From the NCBI GenBank assembly GCA_030916895.1, contig JAUPVR010000005.1:1-39559 (forward strand): a stretch of DNA of 39,559 nt, written 5' to 3'. A program made the translations under genes and the position numbers. Below are positions 3,297-34,567 of this stretch, in pieces. The notes below the pieces were generated by a model that had not been told where the DNA came from, did no database searches, and worked only from the letters and a program-made list of their open reading frames with translations. How positions within the stretch are numbered: position 1 is the first letter of the stretch; every line of letters starts with the position of its first letter. Source of the DNA: Patescibacteria group bacterium. GTDB lineage: Bacteria > Patescibacteriota > Minisyncoccia > Phycocordibacterales > UBA5272.

Positions 3297-3334
3297 ACGA
3301 ACGATTGGTTTTGTGGTACCATAGTCTCTATATG

Positions 3335-4105
3335 ACAGGTCACGCCCACCCAATTACCCACCTCACGGACACTATTGTTCGTATTTTTACGGAGATTGGA
3401 TTTGATGTGGCAGATGGACCTGAACTTGAAACGGAGTGGAATAATTTTGACGCATTAAATGTTCCACGCGATCATCCGTCTCGTGATATGCAAGATACAT
3501 TTTGGATCAAGAAAAAACCAGGGGTCGATAAACTTGGTCGTCCGATGGGACATGTACTTCGTACACACACATCTTCTGTTCAAGTTCGCGCTATGGATAC
3601 GTGGTCAAAAAAATCTGAAGAAGAAAAGAAATCGCAACCACTTGCGATCGTTGTTCCCGGAAAGGTGTTTCGTAATGAAGCAACGGACGCGACACATGAA
3701 TCACAGTTCTATCAAGTAGAAGGATTGCTTGTTGGGGAAGATGTCACACTTTCCCATTTAAAAGGCGTCCTCGAAACATTTTTTAGTAAACTCTTTGGTA
3801 AAAATACAGAAGTGCGTCTTCGTTCTTCTTTCTTTCCTTTCGTTGAGCCAGGAGTCGAAGTAGACATGCAATGTTTTAAGTGTGAAGGGGGAGGGTGTGG
3901 TCTTTGCAAACAAACGGGATGGATTGAAATTATGGGCGCCGGCATGGTACATCCGAATGTTTTAAAGAATTGTGGTATTAATCCGCGCAAGTATAAGGGA
4001 TTTGCATTTGGTGGCGGAATGGACCGCTTAGCAATGCTCAAGTGGGGGATTGATGACATTCGTCTTTTGTATAACGGTGACCTTCGTGTTGTTAATCAAT
4101 TTTAA
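3335..4105 (+). CDS. pheS: phenylalanine--tRNA ligase alpha subunit, lacking the N-terminal coiled coil
   Basis: DGPELETEWNNFDALNVPRDHPSRDMQDTFWI, HTSSVQVRAM, GGGMDRLAMLKWGIDDIR; protein begins at the catalytic domain. Confidence 0.95.
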   Translation, partial: TGHAHPITHLTDTIVRIFTEIGFDVADGPELETEWNNFDALNVPRDHPSRDMQDTFWIKKKPGVDKLGRPMGHVLRTHTSSVQVRAMDTWSKKSEEEKKSQPLAIVVPGKVFRNEATDATHESQFYQVEGLLVGEDVTLSHLKGVLETFFSKLFGKNTEVRLRSSFFPFVEPGVEVDMQCFKCEGGGCGLCKQTGWIEIMGAGMVHPNVLKNCGINPRKYKGFAFGGGMDRLAMLKWGIDDIRLLYNGDLRVVNQF

Positions 4106-4107
4106 GT

Positions 4108-6447
4108 ATGAAATATCTCGAGAGTTGGCTGCAAGAACATATCGATGGAACACTTCCCAATAAAGAGGAGGTTGCGCGTATCCTTTCGGCTAAATCACTT
4201 GAAGTTGAAGAGACAAACGAGGAAGGGGGAGTTACAACTTATGAAGTAAAAATATTACCACATCGCGGACACGATATCATGTCGCATCGCGGACTTGCAC
4301 GAGAGCTTGCGACACTTTTTGATTTGAAGCGAAAGAGCATTTCATTTCCTGTTCCAGAAGTTTCTTCAAAAAAGACTGTGCGTGTTTTGGTTGAGGATGC
4401 TTTGCGTTGTCCTCGTTATAGTGCGGTGTATGTTGAAGGTGTTAAGGCCGGAGATTCTCCAGAGTGGATAAAACAAAAACTTACTCCCATTGGCCAGCGT
4501 TCCATATCAAACATTGTTGATATTACTAATTTCGTTATGAATGATATGGGTCAGCCTATGCATGCTTTTGATGCAGATAAGGTGAAAGGTGGTATCACGG
4601 TTCGTATCGCAAAAGAAGGTGAGACAATGACAACGCTTGACGGAAAAGAGGTCGCTCTTACGGGCACTGAAACAGTGATTGCAGATGATGAAGGTGTTCT
4701 TGCGCTTGCTGGTGTAAAAGGTGGAACAAAAGCAATCGTTGATGAAAACACAAAAGCAATTATTTTTGAAAGTGCAAATTTTGACGCAACATATACGCGA
4801 AAGACATCTGATAAGCACGGGATTCGTACGGATTCTTCAAAGCGTTATGAGCAGGGGATGACAAGTGAATGTGCAGGAGAGGCGATACTTGAAGCGTGCG
4901 CGCTTTTGAAAGAAAGTTGTCCAGAAGCGAGGTTTGGCGCAATTGTTGATGTCTACCCAAAACCAGAAAAGGATTATGAGGTGAGTATATCGGTTAAAGA
5001 AACGAATGACATTTTAGGAACAGCATATTTGAAAAATGAAGTGGAAGACACACTTAATCGACTTGGTTTTTCATATGAGTATGTAAGACTTCGGACACGC
5101 ATTGAAAAAAGAATGGAAAGTGTGAAGGGTGCCGTATATAAGCGTGTATCAAGTATGCGTGAAGACGCACCGAATGCTTTTTCTTGCTCATCACTTGTAA
5201 GCTATCTCTACAATGGTGTATGGCAACCAAGTATTTCGATTGATAAGTATGTTTATGGAGAACCTGTTTCTGCTCAGAATGCAATGTGGGGTGATTTTGT
5301 TTTTTCAAATACAGGCGAAGGAAGTATTCGTTATGAAACCGTTGAGTTTATGCCAGGCACGAAAGTAGAACACGGTATTGACCATGTTGGTTTATACCTC
5401 GGCGACGGAAAAGTATTTCATATTTCACAAAAAAGTAATTCTCCTTGTGTTGAGGATGTAGAAACTTCTTTAAGTTTTGGCAAAAATGTTTTATATGCTC
5501 GCATGGCTGATGTTGACGAAGGAAGATTCTTCCTAACAATTCCGAAAGAACGACTCGATCTTCGAATTAAAGAGGATTTAGCAGAAGAGATTGGACGTGT
5601 CATTGGTTACGATGCTATCAAGACCATACTTCCAAAACTCCCACGAAAAGGCCTTCCTCATAAACGTCTATACTACGAAACAAAAATAAAAAATATTTTG
5701 TTTGCAAACGGGTTTTCAGAAATTTATACCTACACATTTGGAGATAAAGGCGATGTACATATTGTGAAGGGTCTTGCAAGTGATAAAGAAAAATTGCGAA
5801 CCAACCTAGGTGCTGGCGTACTTCAGGCGCTAGAAATGAATCTCCACAACACACCGCTTTTGGGAGCAGATACAGTTAAGGTTTTTGAATTTGGCAATGT
5901 CTTTACTGAAGACAATGAGCGCAGAAACTTTGCCTTAGCAATTGATGATGGTAAAAAGAAGACTTCATTTACTGAAGAAGTTGATTTGGTGCTTTCACAA
6001 ATTAAGCGTGAATGTAAACTTTCCTCCCTTGATTACAACACAATTATTGCTAAGCCATATGTTATTGAGCTTGATTTTGATGCACTCATTGATTCGCTTC
6101 CCGAACCATCATCCTACGAATCACTGACAGAGACAACGACACTTACTACATATCAAACAGTATCACCGTATCCATTTATTGTTCGTGACATTGCTGTATG
6201 GACACCAAAAGGAACAACATGGGAAGAAATAGAGGCACTTGCAAAAACAATCGACGATCCTCGTATTGTTCGCATGGCGTGTTTTGATACGTTTACTAAA
6301 ACCATTGAAGGGAGGGGTGAAATGACATCATACGCGTTCCGCTTTGTGATTCAGTCATATGAAAAAACACTCACAGACGTTGAGGCGAACGAGATTGCAG
6401 ATAAGATGTACTCGCTTTTGAAAGATAAGGGGTACGAGATACGATAA
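4108..6447 (+). CDS. pheT: phenylalanine--tRNA ligase beta subunit with an inserted NlpC/P60-like domain
   Basis: B3/4 region (RSISNIVDITNFVMNDMGQPMHAFD), B5 (LRIKEDLAEEIGRVIGYD), C-terminal FDX-ACB (YPFIVRDIAVW...); one continuous ORF with NlpC/P60-like FSCSSLVSYLYNG...GDFVF...DHVGLYLGDGKVFHIS between B5 segments. Confidence 0.95.
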   Translation: MKYLESWLQEHIDGTLPNKEEVARILSAKSLEVEETNEEGGVTTYEVKILPHRGHDIMSHRGLARELATLFDLKRKSISFPVPEVSSKKTVRVLVEDALRCPRYSAVYVEGVKAGDSPEWIKQKLTPIGQRSISNIVDITNFVMNDMGQPMHAFDADKVKGGITVRIAKEGETMTTLDGKEVALTGTETVIADDEGVLALAGVKGGTKAIVDENTKAIIFESANFDATYTRKTSDKHGIRTDSSKRYEQGMTSECAGEAILEACALLKESCPEARFGAIVDVYPKPEKDYEVSISVKETNDILGTAYLKNEVEDTLNRLGFSYEYVRLRTRIEKRMESVKGAVYKRVSSMREDAPNAFSCSSLVSYLYNGVWQPSISIDKYVYGEPVSAQNAMWGDFVFSNTGEGSIRYETVEFMPGTKVEHGIDHVGLYLGDGKVFHISQKSNSPCVEDVETSLSFGKNVLYARMADVDEGRFFLTIPKERLDLRIKEDLAEEIGRVIGYDAIKTILPKLPRKGLPHKRLYYETKIKNILFANGFSEIYTYTFGDKGDVHIVKGLASDKEKLRTNLGAGVLQALEMNLHNTPLLGADTVKVFEFGNVFTEDNERRNFALAIDDGKKKTSFTEEVDLVLSQIKRECKLSSLDYNTIIAKPYVIELDFDALIDSLPEPSSYESLTETTTLTTYQTVSPYPFIVRDIAVWTPKGTTWEEIEALAKTIDDPRIVRMACFDTFTKTIEGRGEMTSYAFRFVIQSYEKTLTDVEANEIADKMYSLLKDKGYEIR
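5085..5525 (+). other. NlpC/P60-like domain-coding segment inside pheT (approximate limits)
   Basis: Codon 360 Cys (5185-5187), codon 426 His (5383-5385) and codon 438 His (5419-5421) in NlpC/P60-type contexts. Confidence 0.8.
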
Positions 6448-6457
6448 GGATGTAACA

Positions 6458-6955
6458 ATGATTGAAGTACAAGAAAATAAGTACGGTAAAGGGGTGTACG
6501 CAGTTACGCATATTTCTACCGGTACACATATTGCTCCATGGTGCAATTACGTTTCTGAGGAAGAACTGCTCAGTATTCCAAAAGATAAGCGTAATATTGA
6601 TCATGTAACCAAAATTGCCTCGCATCGTTATACACTTAAATCCGAGAAAGTTGATGATTATTTTAATCATTCCTGTGATCCAAATTCTGGCTTATGTTTT
6701 GATGGTGAAAATGTATTTTTGGTTGCAATACGGGACATTGTTCCTAATGAGGAAGTTGTTTGGGATTATTCGACAACGATAGACAAAAGAGCTATTGAAA
6801 TGTTTCCAGAGTGGAAGATGGTTTGTGGGTGCGGTGCGGCTAATTGTCGTAAGATTGTTGACTCTTTCGATACGCTTCCGGAAAAAGTTCGTGCACAATA
6901 TGCGAAACTCGGTATCTTGCCAGAGTTTTTAAGGGACGGAAGTATAGTACAATAA
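6458..6955 (+). CDS. SET-domain protein (putative lysine methyltransferase) with post-SET-like cysteines
   Basis: YGKGVYA, YFNHSCDPNSG, VVWDYS, CGCGAANCRKIV. Confidence 0.88.
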   Translation: MIEVQENKYGKGVYAVTHISTGTHIAPWCNYVSEEELLSIPKDKRNIDHVTKIASHRYTLKSEKVDDYFNHSCDPNSGLCFDGENVFLVAIRDIVPNEEVVWDYSTTIDKRAIEMFPEWKMVCGCGAANCRKIVDSFDTLPEKVRAQYAKLGILPEFLRDGSIVQ

Positions 6956-6961
6956 GTTTAT

Positions 6962-7498
6962 ATGAAATTATCCGTCCCATATTATTCACAATTCATAGAC
7001 ATACAAGATCCGTTTTGGATGCTTCGCGCGTGCGGGGCGTGTTCATTAAAAGATGTAGCGGAATTTCACGGTAAAACCGTGCCTGATATTGTAACGCTTT
7101 GTAACGAAGCAAAAGAGAGAGGCGGATATGACACAGAGAATGGTTGGGTACATGATTATATTGTCACTAAATTACAAGAACTCGGATTACGCGCAGAACG
7201 AAAAGAGGGGATAGAAAATCTCGACGAAGTATTTTCATCTCTTGATGCAGGAAACCCTGTTATCGTTTCAGTCGAGAAACGCGTACTCGAACAAACCCGT
7301 TTTCATATGATTGTGCTTGTCGGCTACGAAACTATATCTAGTCCCCAGTCCCTAACCCCTAGTACCTATTTTTACTATCACGAATCGGAATCTACCGACA
7401 AAGAAAAAGGGCAGTACAGGAGTTGTACAAAAGAGCAATTTTTGGACTTTTGGCGAGGAAAAGCCATCTTTGTTTCTACGGTGTCACTAGGGGCTTAA
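6962..7498 (+). CDS. C39-like papain-fold peptidase family protein
   Basis: VPYYSQ...WMLRACGACSLKDVAEFHG, NPVIVSVEKR, HMIVLVGYE, FYYHES. Confidence 0.7.
   Translation: MKLSVPYYSQFIDIQDPFWMLRACGACSLKDVAEFHGKTVPDIVTLCNEAKERGGYDTENGWVHDYIVTKLQELGLRAERKEGIENLDEVFSSLDAGNPVIVSVEKRVLEQTRFHMIVLVGYETISSPQSLTPSTYFYYHESESTDKEKGQYRSCTKEQFLDFWRGKAIFVSTVSLGA
7339..7366 (+). repeat. four degenerate heptanucleotide units inside a CDS (TAGTCCC CAGTCCC TAACCCC TAGTACC)
   Basis: Read directly; in frame within the C39-like gene, encoding SSPQSLTPST. Confidence 0.75.
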
Positions 7499-8241
7499 AA
7501 CAGTTCTAGGTGTGCCTTAAACGCATCTTTGTGATTGTCGATATGGCGGATGGTATCACTTCGGCAAAGTGCTTTTAGAAGTTTGACGTCATGTACCCAT
7601 TCAGTTCCGTTCCAGAACGATAATGGTTCAACATTTGTTTTGTAGAGAGCTTTCTCTGCATATCCGGTACCGAAATAAAAATAATCTTTTTTACCTTGCA
7701 TTTCACGAATATGGTCAAGTGCAAGCCACATACCAAGCGCTGACCGCGTATACTCTTGTTTGAAAAATGAAAACCAGTAGTGCGAAAAGTTTTCTCCTTC
7801 AACTAAAAGCAAGTATGCAACAGGGGTAGCATCCTTTCTGTATTCAATGACACGAGAGATAAGGTTGGTGTCTAAAATGAGTTCCAAACGTTCTAAAGGC
7901 ATGACATTACCATGGGCCAAATTAAAGTATGAAAGGCAGAGGTCAAAAAATCCCTCATCATGTCGCACGTCTTCTACGGTGCGCGAATGTTTTGTAAACT
8001 CGCCGTCAAATTTTTTAAGTACGCGTCTGTTCTCACTTGTTGGTTCCCATGTGCGTACATAGGAGCGTATGCTTCGTGCCATATAAAACATGTCGTATAC
8101 ATCTTTTGCTCCAGAGAATGGGAGGAACCCTTTTTCGTATATCGATGCTAAATCGTCCTCTTTTTCACGTTTGGCATAAATTGTGTAAGCGAAAGAGTAT
8201 GTTTCGTAAGAGTGCCCAAATTCAGAGGTGATAATTTTCAT
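7495..8241 (-). CDS. ATE/Bpt-like (arginyl/leucyl-tRNA-protein transferase, GNAT-fold) protein
   Basis: RSALGMWLALDHIREMQGKKDYFYFGTGYAEKALYKTNVEPLSFWNGTEWV resembles the ATE C-terminal motif series; ATGA overlap with the upstream gene. Confidence 0.6.
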   Translation of the reverse strand: MKIITSEFGHSYETYSFAYTIYAKREKEDDLASIYEKGFLPFSGAKDVYDMFYMARSIRSYVRTWEPTSENRRVLKKFDGEFTKHSRTVEDVRHDEGFFDLCLSYFNLAHGNVMPLERLELILDTNLISRVIEYRKDATPVAYLLLVEGENFSHYWFSFFKQEYTRSALGMWLALDHIREMQGKKDYFYFGTGYAEKALYKTNVEPLSFWNGTEWVHDVKLLKALCRSDTIRHIDNHKDAFKAHLELF

Positions 8242-9644
8242 TGCCGTGTTGGGAAAAGTGTTTCAATTGCCGGGATAAGTGTATCAAGTAATCCATCCAT
8301 ACTACCAGAACTTAAAATAAGAACAACATCGTTACTTCGTATTTCATCCGCGATGAGTTTTACTCCATGCGGAACATGTTCAAAACCAACAGTGTTAATA
8401 CCGGATGCGTGTACACGAGCAACAATATTATCAAGCGACAGTTGTTCATGAGTGTCTTTGCCATGAATAGGGGGTTTGTAGATAAACACTTTTTCCGCGC
8501 CAGTAAAAACAGAATCGTACCATGAAAGGGCACCCTTATTTCTCCAAGAAAATGTATGTGGTTCAAAAATGATAACAAGTCGGTGCTTCGGGAAATGAAG
8601 CTTGATTGCTTCGACTGCGGATTTTGCTTTATCAACAGATGAACCAAAACCTTCATACACAGGGATGGATGTTTTTTTACTTTTTCTGTCGAGACGGCGA
8701 ATAATCCCCTCAAAGGAAGCGATGCGTTCGTGTAATTCTTCAACTGACAAAAATCCTTTCTCGAGAATGTACGCACAAACCCCGATAATATTTTGTACAT
8801 TGTGCTTACCTAAGAGCTTGGTGGTAAGTGATGTAACAATAACTCCACTGTGTACCAAATTAAAACTTGTTTCATGCCCCCAGGAAATATTTTCCGCATG
8901 CCAGGTTGCTTCTGGTGATAGTCCATAGGTGACGCATGGCGTTTTGAATGTGTGTATTTTTTCGCGAATGGTTGCATCATCAATACAAGCAAGAAATGTT
9001 GCATCGTGTGGGAGTGTTTCGATTAATGTAAAAAATGGCGCAAGGTAATCTTTGTGAGTTGGAAAAACATTGATGTGGTCATGTGCAAGTGCGGTTAGGA
9101 TAAGGTCGTGTGCGTTGTAGTATAAAAATTTTGATGTCACATCTTGGTTTGATGAGGGATATTCATCACCCTCAAGAATAAGTAACGAACTTGTGCCAAG
9201 GGAGGCATTGTTTGAAGGAGTAAGTGGAATGGCGCCAATAAAGTACCCAACACCTTTTGGTTCTAAGCACCACGCAAGCAGTGATGCACACGTTGATTTA
9301 CCAAAACTGCCAGCAACCACAATTGGGTAGCGGTCCTTAATAATAAATTGAAGTGCTTGTGGGAAAGAAAGAATTTTTTTTCCTGTTGCAAAAGCCTCCG
9401 CCACTTCTTCGTTTTCTTCTGGTACAAGTTTGGCGTGTTTTCCGATGATGATATAGTCCGCATCGCTCGGTATATTCTCTCTAGAGAAGGGGGTTGTACA
9501 CGGAATATTATTTGTAGTTAGGTAGTCAGAAATTGGCGGGTAAAACCCCTCATCGCTTCCGGTTACTGTGTGCCCTTGGTCGATAAGAAGTTTTGCAACC
9601 GCACTCATTCCAGCGCCACAAATTCCGATAAAGTGAAAACGCAT
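8238..9644 (-). CDS. Mur ligase family protein (MurC/Mpl-like)
   Basis: MRFHFIGICGAGMSAVAKLLIDQGHTVTGSD, P-loop VAGSFGKST, LEGDEYPSS, ALAHDHINVFPT, IIFEPHTFSW; start at 9644. Confidence 0.88.
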   Translation of the reverse strand: MRFHFIGICGAGMSAVAKLLIDQGHTVTGSDEGFYPPISDYLTTNNIPCTTPFSRENIPSDADYIIIGKHAKLVPEENEEVAEAFATGKKILSFPQALQFIIKDRYPIVVAGSFGKSTCASLLAWCLEPKGVGYFIGAIPLTPSNNASLGTSSLLILEGDEYPSSNQDVTSKFLYYNAHDLILTALAHDHINVFPTHKDYLAPFFTLIETLPHDATFLACIDDATIREKIHTFKTPCVTYGLSPEATWHAENISWGHETSFNLVHSGVIVTSLTTKLLGKHNVQNIIGVCAYILEKGFLSVEELHERIASFEGIIRRLDRKSKKTSIPVYEGFGSSVDKAKSAVEAIKLHFPKHRLVIIFEPHTFSWRNKGALSWYDSVFTGAEKVFIYKPPIHGKDTHEQLSLDNIVARVHASGINTVGFEHVPHGVKLIADEIRSNDVVLILSSGSMDGLLDTLIPAIETLFPTRQ

Positions 9645-9686
9645 ATAGGAAAGAGTGTAGCATGCCAAGAAATTGTGTATAAAAAA

Positions 9687-34036: not shown

Positions 34037-34567
34037 ATGGGAAAGACATCGAAAGCAAAACAGTCAAAAATTTTAAGACAAGGTTCAAAAAAAGCTGAAA
34101 CACTTAGTAAAAAAATTTCACCAAATACAAAAAATCTTCCAGACCACCATTTTAAATTGGTAAAAGTAAAACGCGGATTAGATGGTCTTGGTTTGTTTGC
34201 GGGGGAAGACATTAAAAAAGGTGAAATCATTATCGAATACATTGGTACTATTTTAAATAAAGAAGAGGCGGAGAAAGTAACAACAAGTATGTACCTCTTT
34301 GAAGTAAATCGAAATAAAACAATTGATGGTTCTGTGAGATGGAATATTGCGCGATACGCAAACCATGCATGTGATCCAGAAGGAAATGCAGAAAGTGATA
34401 TTAAGAAAGGGCGTGTTTTTATTAAGGCGATTAAGAATATTAAAGAAGGGGATGAAATTCTTTATGATTATGGTGAGGAGTTTGTTAAAGAATATATTGC
34501 TCCAAAAGGTTGTCGTTGTCGCGCTGTTAAACATGATTACGGCGCAAAAGGTCATGTTAGTAAGTAA
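34037..34567 (+). CDS. SET-domain protein (putative lysine methyltransferase) with basic N-terminus
   Basis: GLGLFAGEDIKKGEIIIEYIG, ARYANHACDPEGNAE, DEILYDYGEEF. Confidence 0.9.
   Translation: MGKTSKAKQSKILRQGSKKAETLSKKISPNTKNLPDHHFKLVKVKRGLDGLGLFAGEDIKKGEIIIEYIGTILNKEEAEKVTTSMYLFEVNRNKTIDGSVRWNIARYANHACDPEGNAESDIKKGRVFIKAIKNIKEGDEILYDYGEEFVKEYIAPKGCRCRAVKHDYGAKGHVSK

Follow-up and report, generated by a model that had tools for sequence, protein, structure and literature searches.

A Papain-Fold Hydrolase Domain within the B5 Domain of Patescibacterial Phenylalanyl-tRNA Synthetase, a Probable New Enzyme Accessory to Translation

Introduction

Why should an enzyme that attaches phenylalanine to tRNA carry a papain-fold hydrolase within one of its own domains? 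This question is raised by a stretch of 39,559 nucleotides from a Patescibacteria group bacterium (contig JAUPVR010000005.1 of assembly GCA_030916895.1, here called the window), in which pheT, the gene for the beta subunit of phenylalanyl-tRNA synthetase (PheRS), encodes a domain of NlpC/P60, a family of cysteine hydrolases that cut cell wall, inside the B5 domain. An initial annotation, made from the DNA letters without database searches, had noticed this arrangement and had suggested a role in editing or deacylation, or a tether of PheRS to envelope metabolism. To our knowledge, a catalytic domain acquired by a tRNA synthetase nearly always serves editing, and neither an NlpC/P60 domain in PheRS nor a papain-fold hydrolase built into any tRNA synthetase was found described in the open-access full-text literature. 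The component families are known; their combination seems new to report. Given its age, its conserved active site, its swapping between PheT proteins, its occasional presence as a gene of its own, and its pairing with a second hydrolase, the insert is probably a new enzyme accessory to translation. Genome searches covered the phylum of the window by way of its family (21 genomes), its order (298 genomes), a sample of its class and a sample of the phylum.

Fold and Position of the Insert

The gene and the parts of it which are needed here are the following:

4108 to 6447, plus strand: pheT, PheRS beta subunit with the inserted hydrolase, 779 amino acids, lacking the B2 OB domain (open reading frame and Pfam)
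4972 to 5079, plus strand: N-terminal half of the B5 domain (strand-helix-helix-strand), residues 289–324 (AlphaFold2 model; the homologous half is retained in the excised genes described below)
5080 to 5526, plus strand: inserted NlpC/P60 domain, residues 325–473, limits approximate (PF00877 over its cut-off; profile and fold matches to solved structures; absent in register from insert-less relatives)
5527 to 5619, plus strand: C-terminal half of the B5 domain, residues 474–504 (best PF03484 stretch 467–501; strand 184–190 and helix 200–215 of the AlphaFold2 model)

As had been read from the sequence at the outset, pheT is a single ATG-started frame without interruption. Pfam yielded the order B3_4 (residues 101–271), NLPC_P60 (355–445), the C-terminal part of B5 (467–501), CLM, and FDX-ACB. 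The NLPC_P60 match reached 30.6 bits (E 3.5e-7) with the whole PheT and 36.8 bits (E 4.1e-9) with the insert alone, both above the curated cut-off of 23 bits for PF00877, which the initial annotation had expected a Pfam search to find. An NCBIfam scan of PheT added weak RipB-type NlpC matches, and a profile of 15 inserts compared with solved structures retrieved NlpC/P60 hydrolases, the best being 7cfl (E 3.8e-18). No other NlpC/P60 match was found in the genome of the window (660 kb in 37 contigs). Because the insert is present and B2 is missing, the score of PheT with TIGR00472, the model of bacterial PheRS beta, is lowered to 401.4 against a cut-off of 402.65.

An AlphaFold2 model of B5 with the insert (mean local confidence, pLDDT, 89; predicted template modelling score, pTM, 0.85) placed strands at 2–7 and 34–39 and helices at 8–15 and 21–30 of the model numbering, and after the insert the strand and helix listed above. 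Foldseek comparison of this model with the Protein Data Bank returned NlpC/P60 hydrolases as top matches (7cfl_B, TMt 0.86, E 1.5e-8). The insert is a true NlpC/P60 papain-fold domain located in the wing of the winged-helix B5 domain, and in this confident model the two B5 halves fold as one unit with the hydrolase sitting between the two wing strands. Both the family and the location within B5 proposed initially are thereby confirmed, and the limits given then, 5085 and 5525, were correct to within a few codons. A model of the full-length PheT (pLDDT 68, pTM 0.50) was too weak to position the domain relative to the tRNA.

An assembly chimera or contamination at 5080–5530, a possibility named at the outset, is practically impossible, since identical junctions occur in dozens of independently assembled genomes; nothing was found in its favour.

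Catalytic Residues and Substrate Pocket

Residue conservation was counted in 51 insert-bearing PheT proteins and the pocket was mapped on BcYkfC (PMC2954226). The predicted catalytic residues are encoded at these positions:

5137 to 5139, plus strand: Tyr344, equivalent of BcYkfC Tyr226 on the oxyanion side (51/51)
5185 to 5187, plus strand: Cys360 (TGC), predicted catalytic nucleophile (51/51)
5383 to 5385, plus strand: His426 (CAT), predicted catalytic base (51/51)
5419 to 5421, plus strand: His438 (CAT), third polar residue (His in 48/51, Asp in two, Tyr in one)

The Cys-His-His set named in the initial annotation thus stands at the residues given there and is intact, and the suggested survey of Patescibacteria found the same architecture with conserved catalytic residues across the phylum. 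Gly395, Asp396, and Arg465 are likewise invariant among the 51 proteins. A structural or tRNA-binding insert without catalysis would be in keeping with the common observation that inserts in aminoacyl-tRNA synthetases bind RNA or proteins; it is very unlikely here, as the Cys, His, and Tyr are invariant over the phylum while the surrounding residues, including those of the pocket, drift.

The pocket gives a different picture. BcYkfC recognises gamma-D-Glu by a set of residues common to many, though not all, NlpC/P60 members (Tyr226/Trp228/Asp237/Ser239), and murein peptide by an Asp, a Trp, and an Arg; Asp256, which binds the free L-Ala amine, and Tyr118 of the SH3b domain are further features of the YkfC subfamily (PMC2954226). 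Among the inserts the equivalent of Trp228 is Trp in two of 51 (Arg346 in the window), that of Asp237 is Asp in 36 and Ser or Asn in 15 (Ser359 in the window), that of Arg255 is Arg in 30 and another residue in 21 (Ser375 in the window), and that of Asp256 is never Asp (0/51). From the gamma-D-Glu recognition set the insert of the window keeps the Tyr and the Ser and lacks the Trp and the Asp, and neither Pfam nor the AlphaFold2 model revealed an SH3b domain in it. Judged by these alignments, the catalytic set is retained, the murein-peptide pocket is lost or variable across the inserts, and the specificity differs from that of the studied murein enzymes.

Distribution, Loss, and Exchange

The insert is phylum-wide but patchy in Patescibacteria. 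PheT is present in all 21 genomes of the family, and the insert in the PheT of 12 of the 16 members of the genus (the genome of the window included) and in all three of a second genus, g4; five genomes (G003, G004, G015, G017, and G001) have a cleanly insert-less PheT. In the order, 76 of 298 genomes matched the insert profile, 58 of them within a frame of PheT length. The class sample added 11 insert-bearing PheT from outside the order, and the phylum sample eight from other classes, which are 922–965 amino acids long; L155, the only one of these scanned with Pfam, retains the B2 tRNA-binding domain. The insertion site is identical in all insert-bearing PheT.

On the tree of the PheT bodies the absences within the genus need three changes, and by this tree the module has been lost at least three times there. 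The body tree conflicts with the insert tree within the genus, and approximately unbiased tests on the insert rejected two body clades (p 3e-42 and 3e-5). These p values are indicative, the clades having been chosen on the body tree when both trees were already known. The tests reject a simple vertical descent in which each insert stays with its PheT. The inserts of G013 and G016 are 72% identical, with flanking PheT parts at 43% and 50%; mostly, inserts are less similar to each other than the PheT bodies which bear them. A viral origin was considered and rejected, viral contigs having yielded only ordinary phage-type NlpC/P60 domains with 27–33% identity. The insert is an old, optional, and exchangeable module of PheRS in this phylum.

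Excised Genes beside a Monomeric PheRS

The domain also occurs outside PheT, which the initial annotation had not foreseen. Freestanding NlpC genes of about 197–226 amino acids have recognisable B5 halves on both sides, and in seven genomes (G246, G176, G184, G274, G069, G116, and G221) such an excised gene adjoins a monomeric PheRS of about 380 amino acids, consisting of a class II core and FDX-ACB. The two genes are divergent in G246 and G176 and co-directional, touching or nearly so, in the other five. No PheT was found in these seven genomes (94–100% complete), nor a B3/4 domain or a second PheS. Several of the seven loci are syntenic with the window (membrane protein, glycosyltransferase, PheRS, NlpC, GyrB). 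Since the excised genes are nested among PheT inserts on the domain tree, they were most likely released from PheT; those of G156 and G197, for instance, group with the insert in PheT of the family to which these two genomes belong (96/80). In these two genomes the excised copy lies near cell-wall genes (MraY-like, VanW-like), and a normal insert-less PheT is encoded elsewhere. Most forms of the module are tied to PheRS, be it as B5 insert or as excised gene next to a monomeric PheRS.

A monomeric PheRS of this length occurs in 53 of the 298 genomes of the order (L108–L114, L181–L210; for example L110:1180–2325) and scores just under the cut-offs of TIGR00469 (249 versus 258) and NF051887 “SrmL” (261 versus 300). 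Only about eight of the 53 have an NlpC neighbour gene, therefore the domain is optional. NlpC genes without B5 flanks lie near monomeric PheRS in other orders (L142–L145).

Two further observations belong to this subject. The locus L075 (G159) has a normal pheS-pheT pair plus a second, monomeric PheRS-like gene with an adjoining NlpC gene. A remoter freestanding NlpC family of about 200 amino acids with B5-like flanks (“YRAVGNRCAV...”; L146, L149, L157–L159, L074, L076, L078–L081) forms an outgroup to the PheT inserts, and some of its members adjoin tRNA-synthetase genes other than PheRS.

Relation to Editing

The editing residues of the B3/4 domain (His152, Gly205, Glu221, and Thr241, which we take to correspond to the E. 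coli editing-site residues H265, G318, E334, and T354) are intact in insert-bearing PheT, that of the window included, as in insert-less relatives. With an intact B3/4 site, and with most PheT-less genomes that rely on monomeric PheRS lacking the NlpC domain, the insert is not a stand-in for lost editing. Replacement of D-aminoacyl-tRNA deacylase (PF02580) was also considered; it is uninformative, as this enzyme was found in none of 62 Patescibacteria genomes and its absence, with and without insert, does not discriminate.

What is left is an accessory editing domain, in which the NlpC site would deacylate tRNA(Phe) mischarged with Tyr, meta-Tyr, or D-amino acids alongside B3/4. This is unlikely, though not without arguments: the module is mostly tied to PheRS, alpha-beta or monomeric; the same 62 genomes lack the deacylase; and the PheT of the window has lost B2, a domain contributing to editing, a loss noted in bacteria of the candidate phyla radiation (PMC5370408). 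Against these stand the intact B3/4 site, the coexistence of insert and B2 in other classes, the rarity of the NlpC gene among genomes whose monomeric PheRS has no B3/4, and the lack of an obvious need for the peptidase described in the next section.

A C39-Like Partner and Other Neighbouring Genes

Two genes on either side of pheT have to be added:

6962 to 7498, plus strand: C39-like cysteine peptidase, 178 amino acids, co-inherited partner of the insert (PF13529, E 8.7e-10; co-occurrence)
3332 to 4105, plus strand: pheS, PheRS alpha subunit, about 257 amino acids from the ATG at 3332, with a TTG at 3305 as alternative start (PF01409, E 4.8e-94)

The C39-like gene had not been noticed in the initial annotation. 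Its product scored 39.8 bits with PF13529 (cut-off 24), and Gln10, Cys24, His64, and His115 are invariant in 21 copies. The gene follows most insert-bearing PheT and also the excised genes of G274, G221, and G116; none was found beside the insert-less PheT or monomeric PheRS loci of the first comparison. A strong C39 match was present in 44 of the 298 genomes of the order. The NlpC module occurs in 42 of these 44, and in 41 genomes the two share a contig and lie no more than 6 kb apart. G039, whose C39 gene lies at a contig end, is an exception. The C39 of G007 groups with those of G008 and G016, as does the G007 insert and contrary to the G007 PheT body. PADLOC models of known anti-phage defence proteins gave no match to either enzyme at E 0.1.

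Papain-fold Cys enzymes tethered to a source of activated Phe might also transfer it: Phe-AMP or Phe-tRNA would donate Phe to Cys360, which would bind it as a thioester and hand it to an acceptor, C39 catalysing a second step. The papain-fold acyltransferases LRAT and BtrH are precedents; BtrH_N matched one C39 homologue marginally (E 0.054), and LRAT matched NlpC copies weakly. As these matches are below cut-off and the module is not accompanied by any recurring gene for an acceptor or for biosynthesis, such a transfer is rather improbable. A little less probable still is a peptide-scavenging metabolon, in which NlpC and C39 would cut imported peptides and supply Phe to PheRS. It would suit a genome reduced to 660 kb in which two peptidase folds lie next to PheRS, reduced genomes of this sort being generally auxotrophic; there is no reason why PheRS alone should need such a supply, and the module is missing from most genomes of the same order.

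A cytosolic enzyme of murein-peptide recycling merely riding on PheT deserves a similarly low estimate. YkfC is a member of the family to which the insert belongs, recycling enzymes of the NlpC/P60 type are known from the cytosol (PMC9928106), a Mur ligase is encoded at 8238–9668, and there are the excised copies near the MraY-like and VanW-like genes of G156 and G197. The pocket speaks against it, with the Asp256 equivalent absent from all 51 proteins and those of Asp237, Arg255, and Trp228 replaced in the window. The Mur ligase occupies the same place in insert-less loci and was rejected as a partner, as was an L,D-transpeptidase gene (PG_binding_4 and YkuD) which follows pheT in another class (L257–L264, L270–L278): its presence is independent of the insert. 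The proposed tether to envelope metabolism was not borne out on the same grounds, Ser359, Arg346, and Ser375 having replaced the Asp, Trp, and Arg of BcYkfC.

Other genes of the neighbourhood are mentioned for completeness. The window contains two SET-domain-like genes, one confirmed by Pfam (6458–6955) and one recognised by eye (34037–34567); the SET gene was dismissed as a partner, not being recurrent among loci. A GNAT protein (7498–8241) with weak similarity to arginyl-tRNA-protein transferase (ATE_C), possibly a Fem-like aminoacyl-tRNA-dependent wall enzyme, adjoins the ligase at 8238–9668, which is of MurC/Mpl type, and this pair occurs with and without insert. PheS of the window starts at the class II core and seems to have lost its N-terminal coiled-coil part; PheS proteins in other classes of the phylum have 331–359 amino acids.

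Proposed Role

The role we put forward, tentatively, is that of a thiol hydrolase tethered to PheRS which clears an aberrant or inhibitory aminoacyl compound. B5 would serve as the docking point holding the cytosolic hydrolase on PheRS, and the hydrolase would attack aminoacyl compounds, at their acyl or amide bond, which meet PheRS and should not persist. One candidate is a tRNA that is mischarged or bears a non-protein amino acid. An inhibitor that contains Phe, for example an aminoacyl-nucleotide or a Phe-amide antimetabolite, appears somewhat likelier, because the module is optional, fast-changing, and swapped and a second hydrolase goes with it, while normal editing is retained. The C39 enzyme may act on the same class of compounds, and the module would then provide accessory quality control or self-protection outside basic charging. 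Its behaviour, with losses, exchange from PheT to PheT, and divergent inserts, is accessory and conflict-like. On balance we favour the wider view that the B5-docked papain-fold hydrolase and its C39 co-hydrolase form a previously undescribed accessory system of translation, which would act on aminoacyl products or inhibitors, not on the cell wall, and whose history within Patescibacteria would include swaps, losses, and excisions.

Several points weigh against this reading. The co-occurrence of C39 and NlpC (Fisher p 1.2e-30) carries no correction for relatedness. Six pairs chosen to be phylogenetically independent split 4.5 to 1 (p 0.22, underpowered), and a partial Mantel test between C39 and insert, conditioned on the PheT body, gave p 0.07; the corrected tests point in the same direction as the raw association, weakly. 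There are 26 module-bearing genomes without a strong C39, G163 has C39 beside an insert-less PheT, and the excised copies in G156, G197, and G121 are not beside PheRS. Patchiness and exchange would suit a metabolic function too, and we know of no natural PheRS inhibitor documented in the habitat of these bacteria.

Should the module act on aminoacyl compounds, one of the largest groups of bacteria would possess a novel kind of quality control in translation or of self-protection of a synthetase. The many natural pairs with and without the module, excised copies, and swapped inserts make the hypothesis directly testable.

Comparison with Known Systems

The insert shares its fold, the Cys-His-His triad, and the catalytic Tyr with NlpC/P60 enzymes of the YkfC or dipeptidyl-peptidase VI type (MEROPS C40), and also the cytosolic location of YkfC-like recycling enzymes. 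It differs from YkfC (PMC2954226) by the lack of SH3b and of Asp256, by the equivalents of Asp237, Arg255, and Trp228 that are replaced in the window, and by its place within a tRNA synthetase. With canonical bacterial PheRS beta (TIGR00472) the PheT of the window has in common B3/4 with an intact site, B5, CLM, FDX-ACB, and the pheS-pheT operon, whereas B2 is missing and about 150 amino acids of hydrolase are added in B5. Absence of B2 is a feature of many PheT of the candidate phyla radiation (PMC5370408), and the pheT of Altiarchaeales is divided immediately ahead of B5 (PMC4975002). The monomer next to the excised genes, a PheS core with FDX-ACB, resembles the mitochondrial-type PheRS (TIGR00469) and NF051887 but remains under both cut-offs, and its NlpC partner gene is outside either family.

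For the proposed role the closest parallel is MccF, an L,D-carboxypeptidase which destroys an AspRS inhibitor derived from microcin C by hydrolysing this aminoacyl-nucleotide (PMC9239234). MccF has another fold and another nucleophile, is free-standing, and is directed at AspRS; by analogy it may nevertheless be taken as a precedent for an enzyme of the murein-peptidase type guarding a tRNA synthetase.
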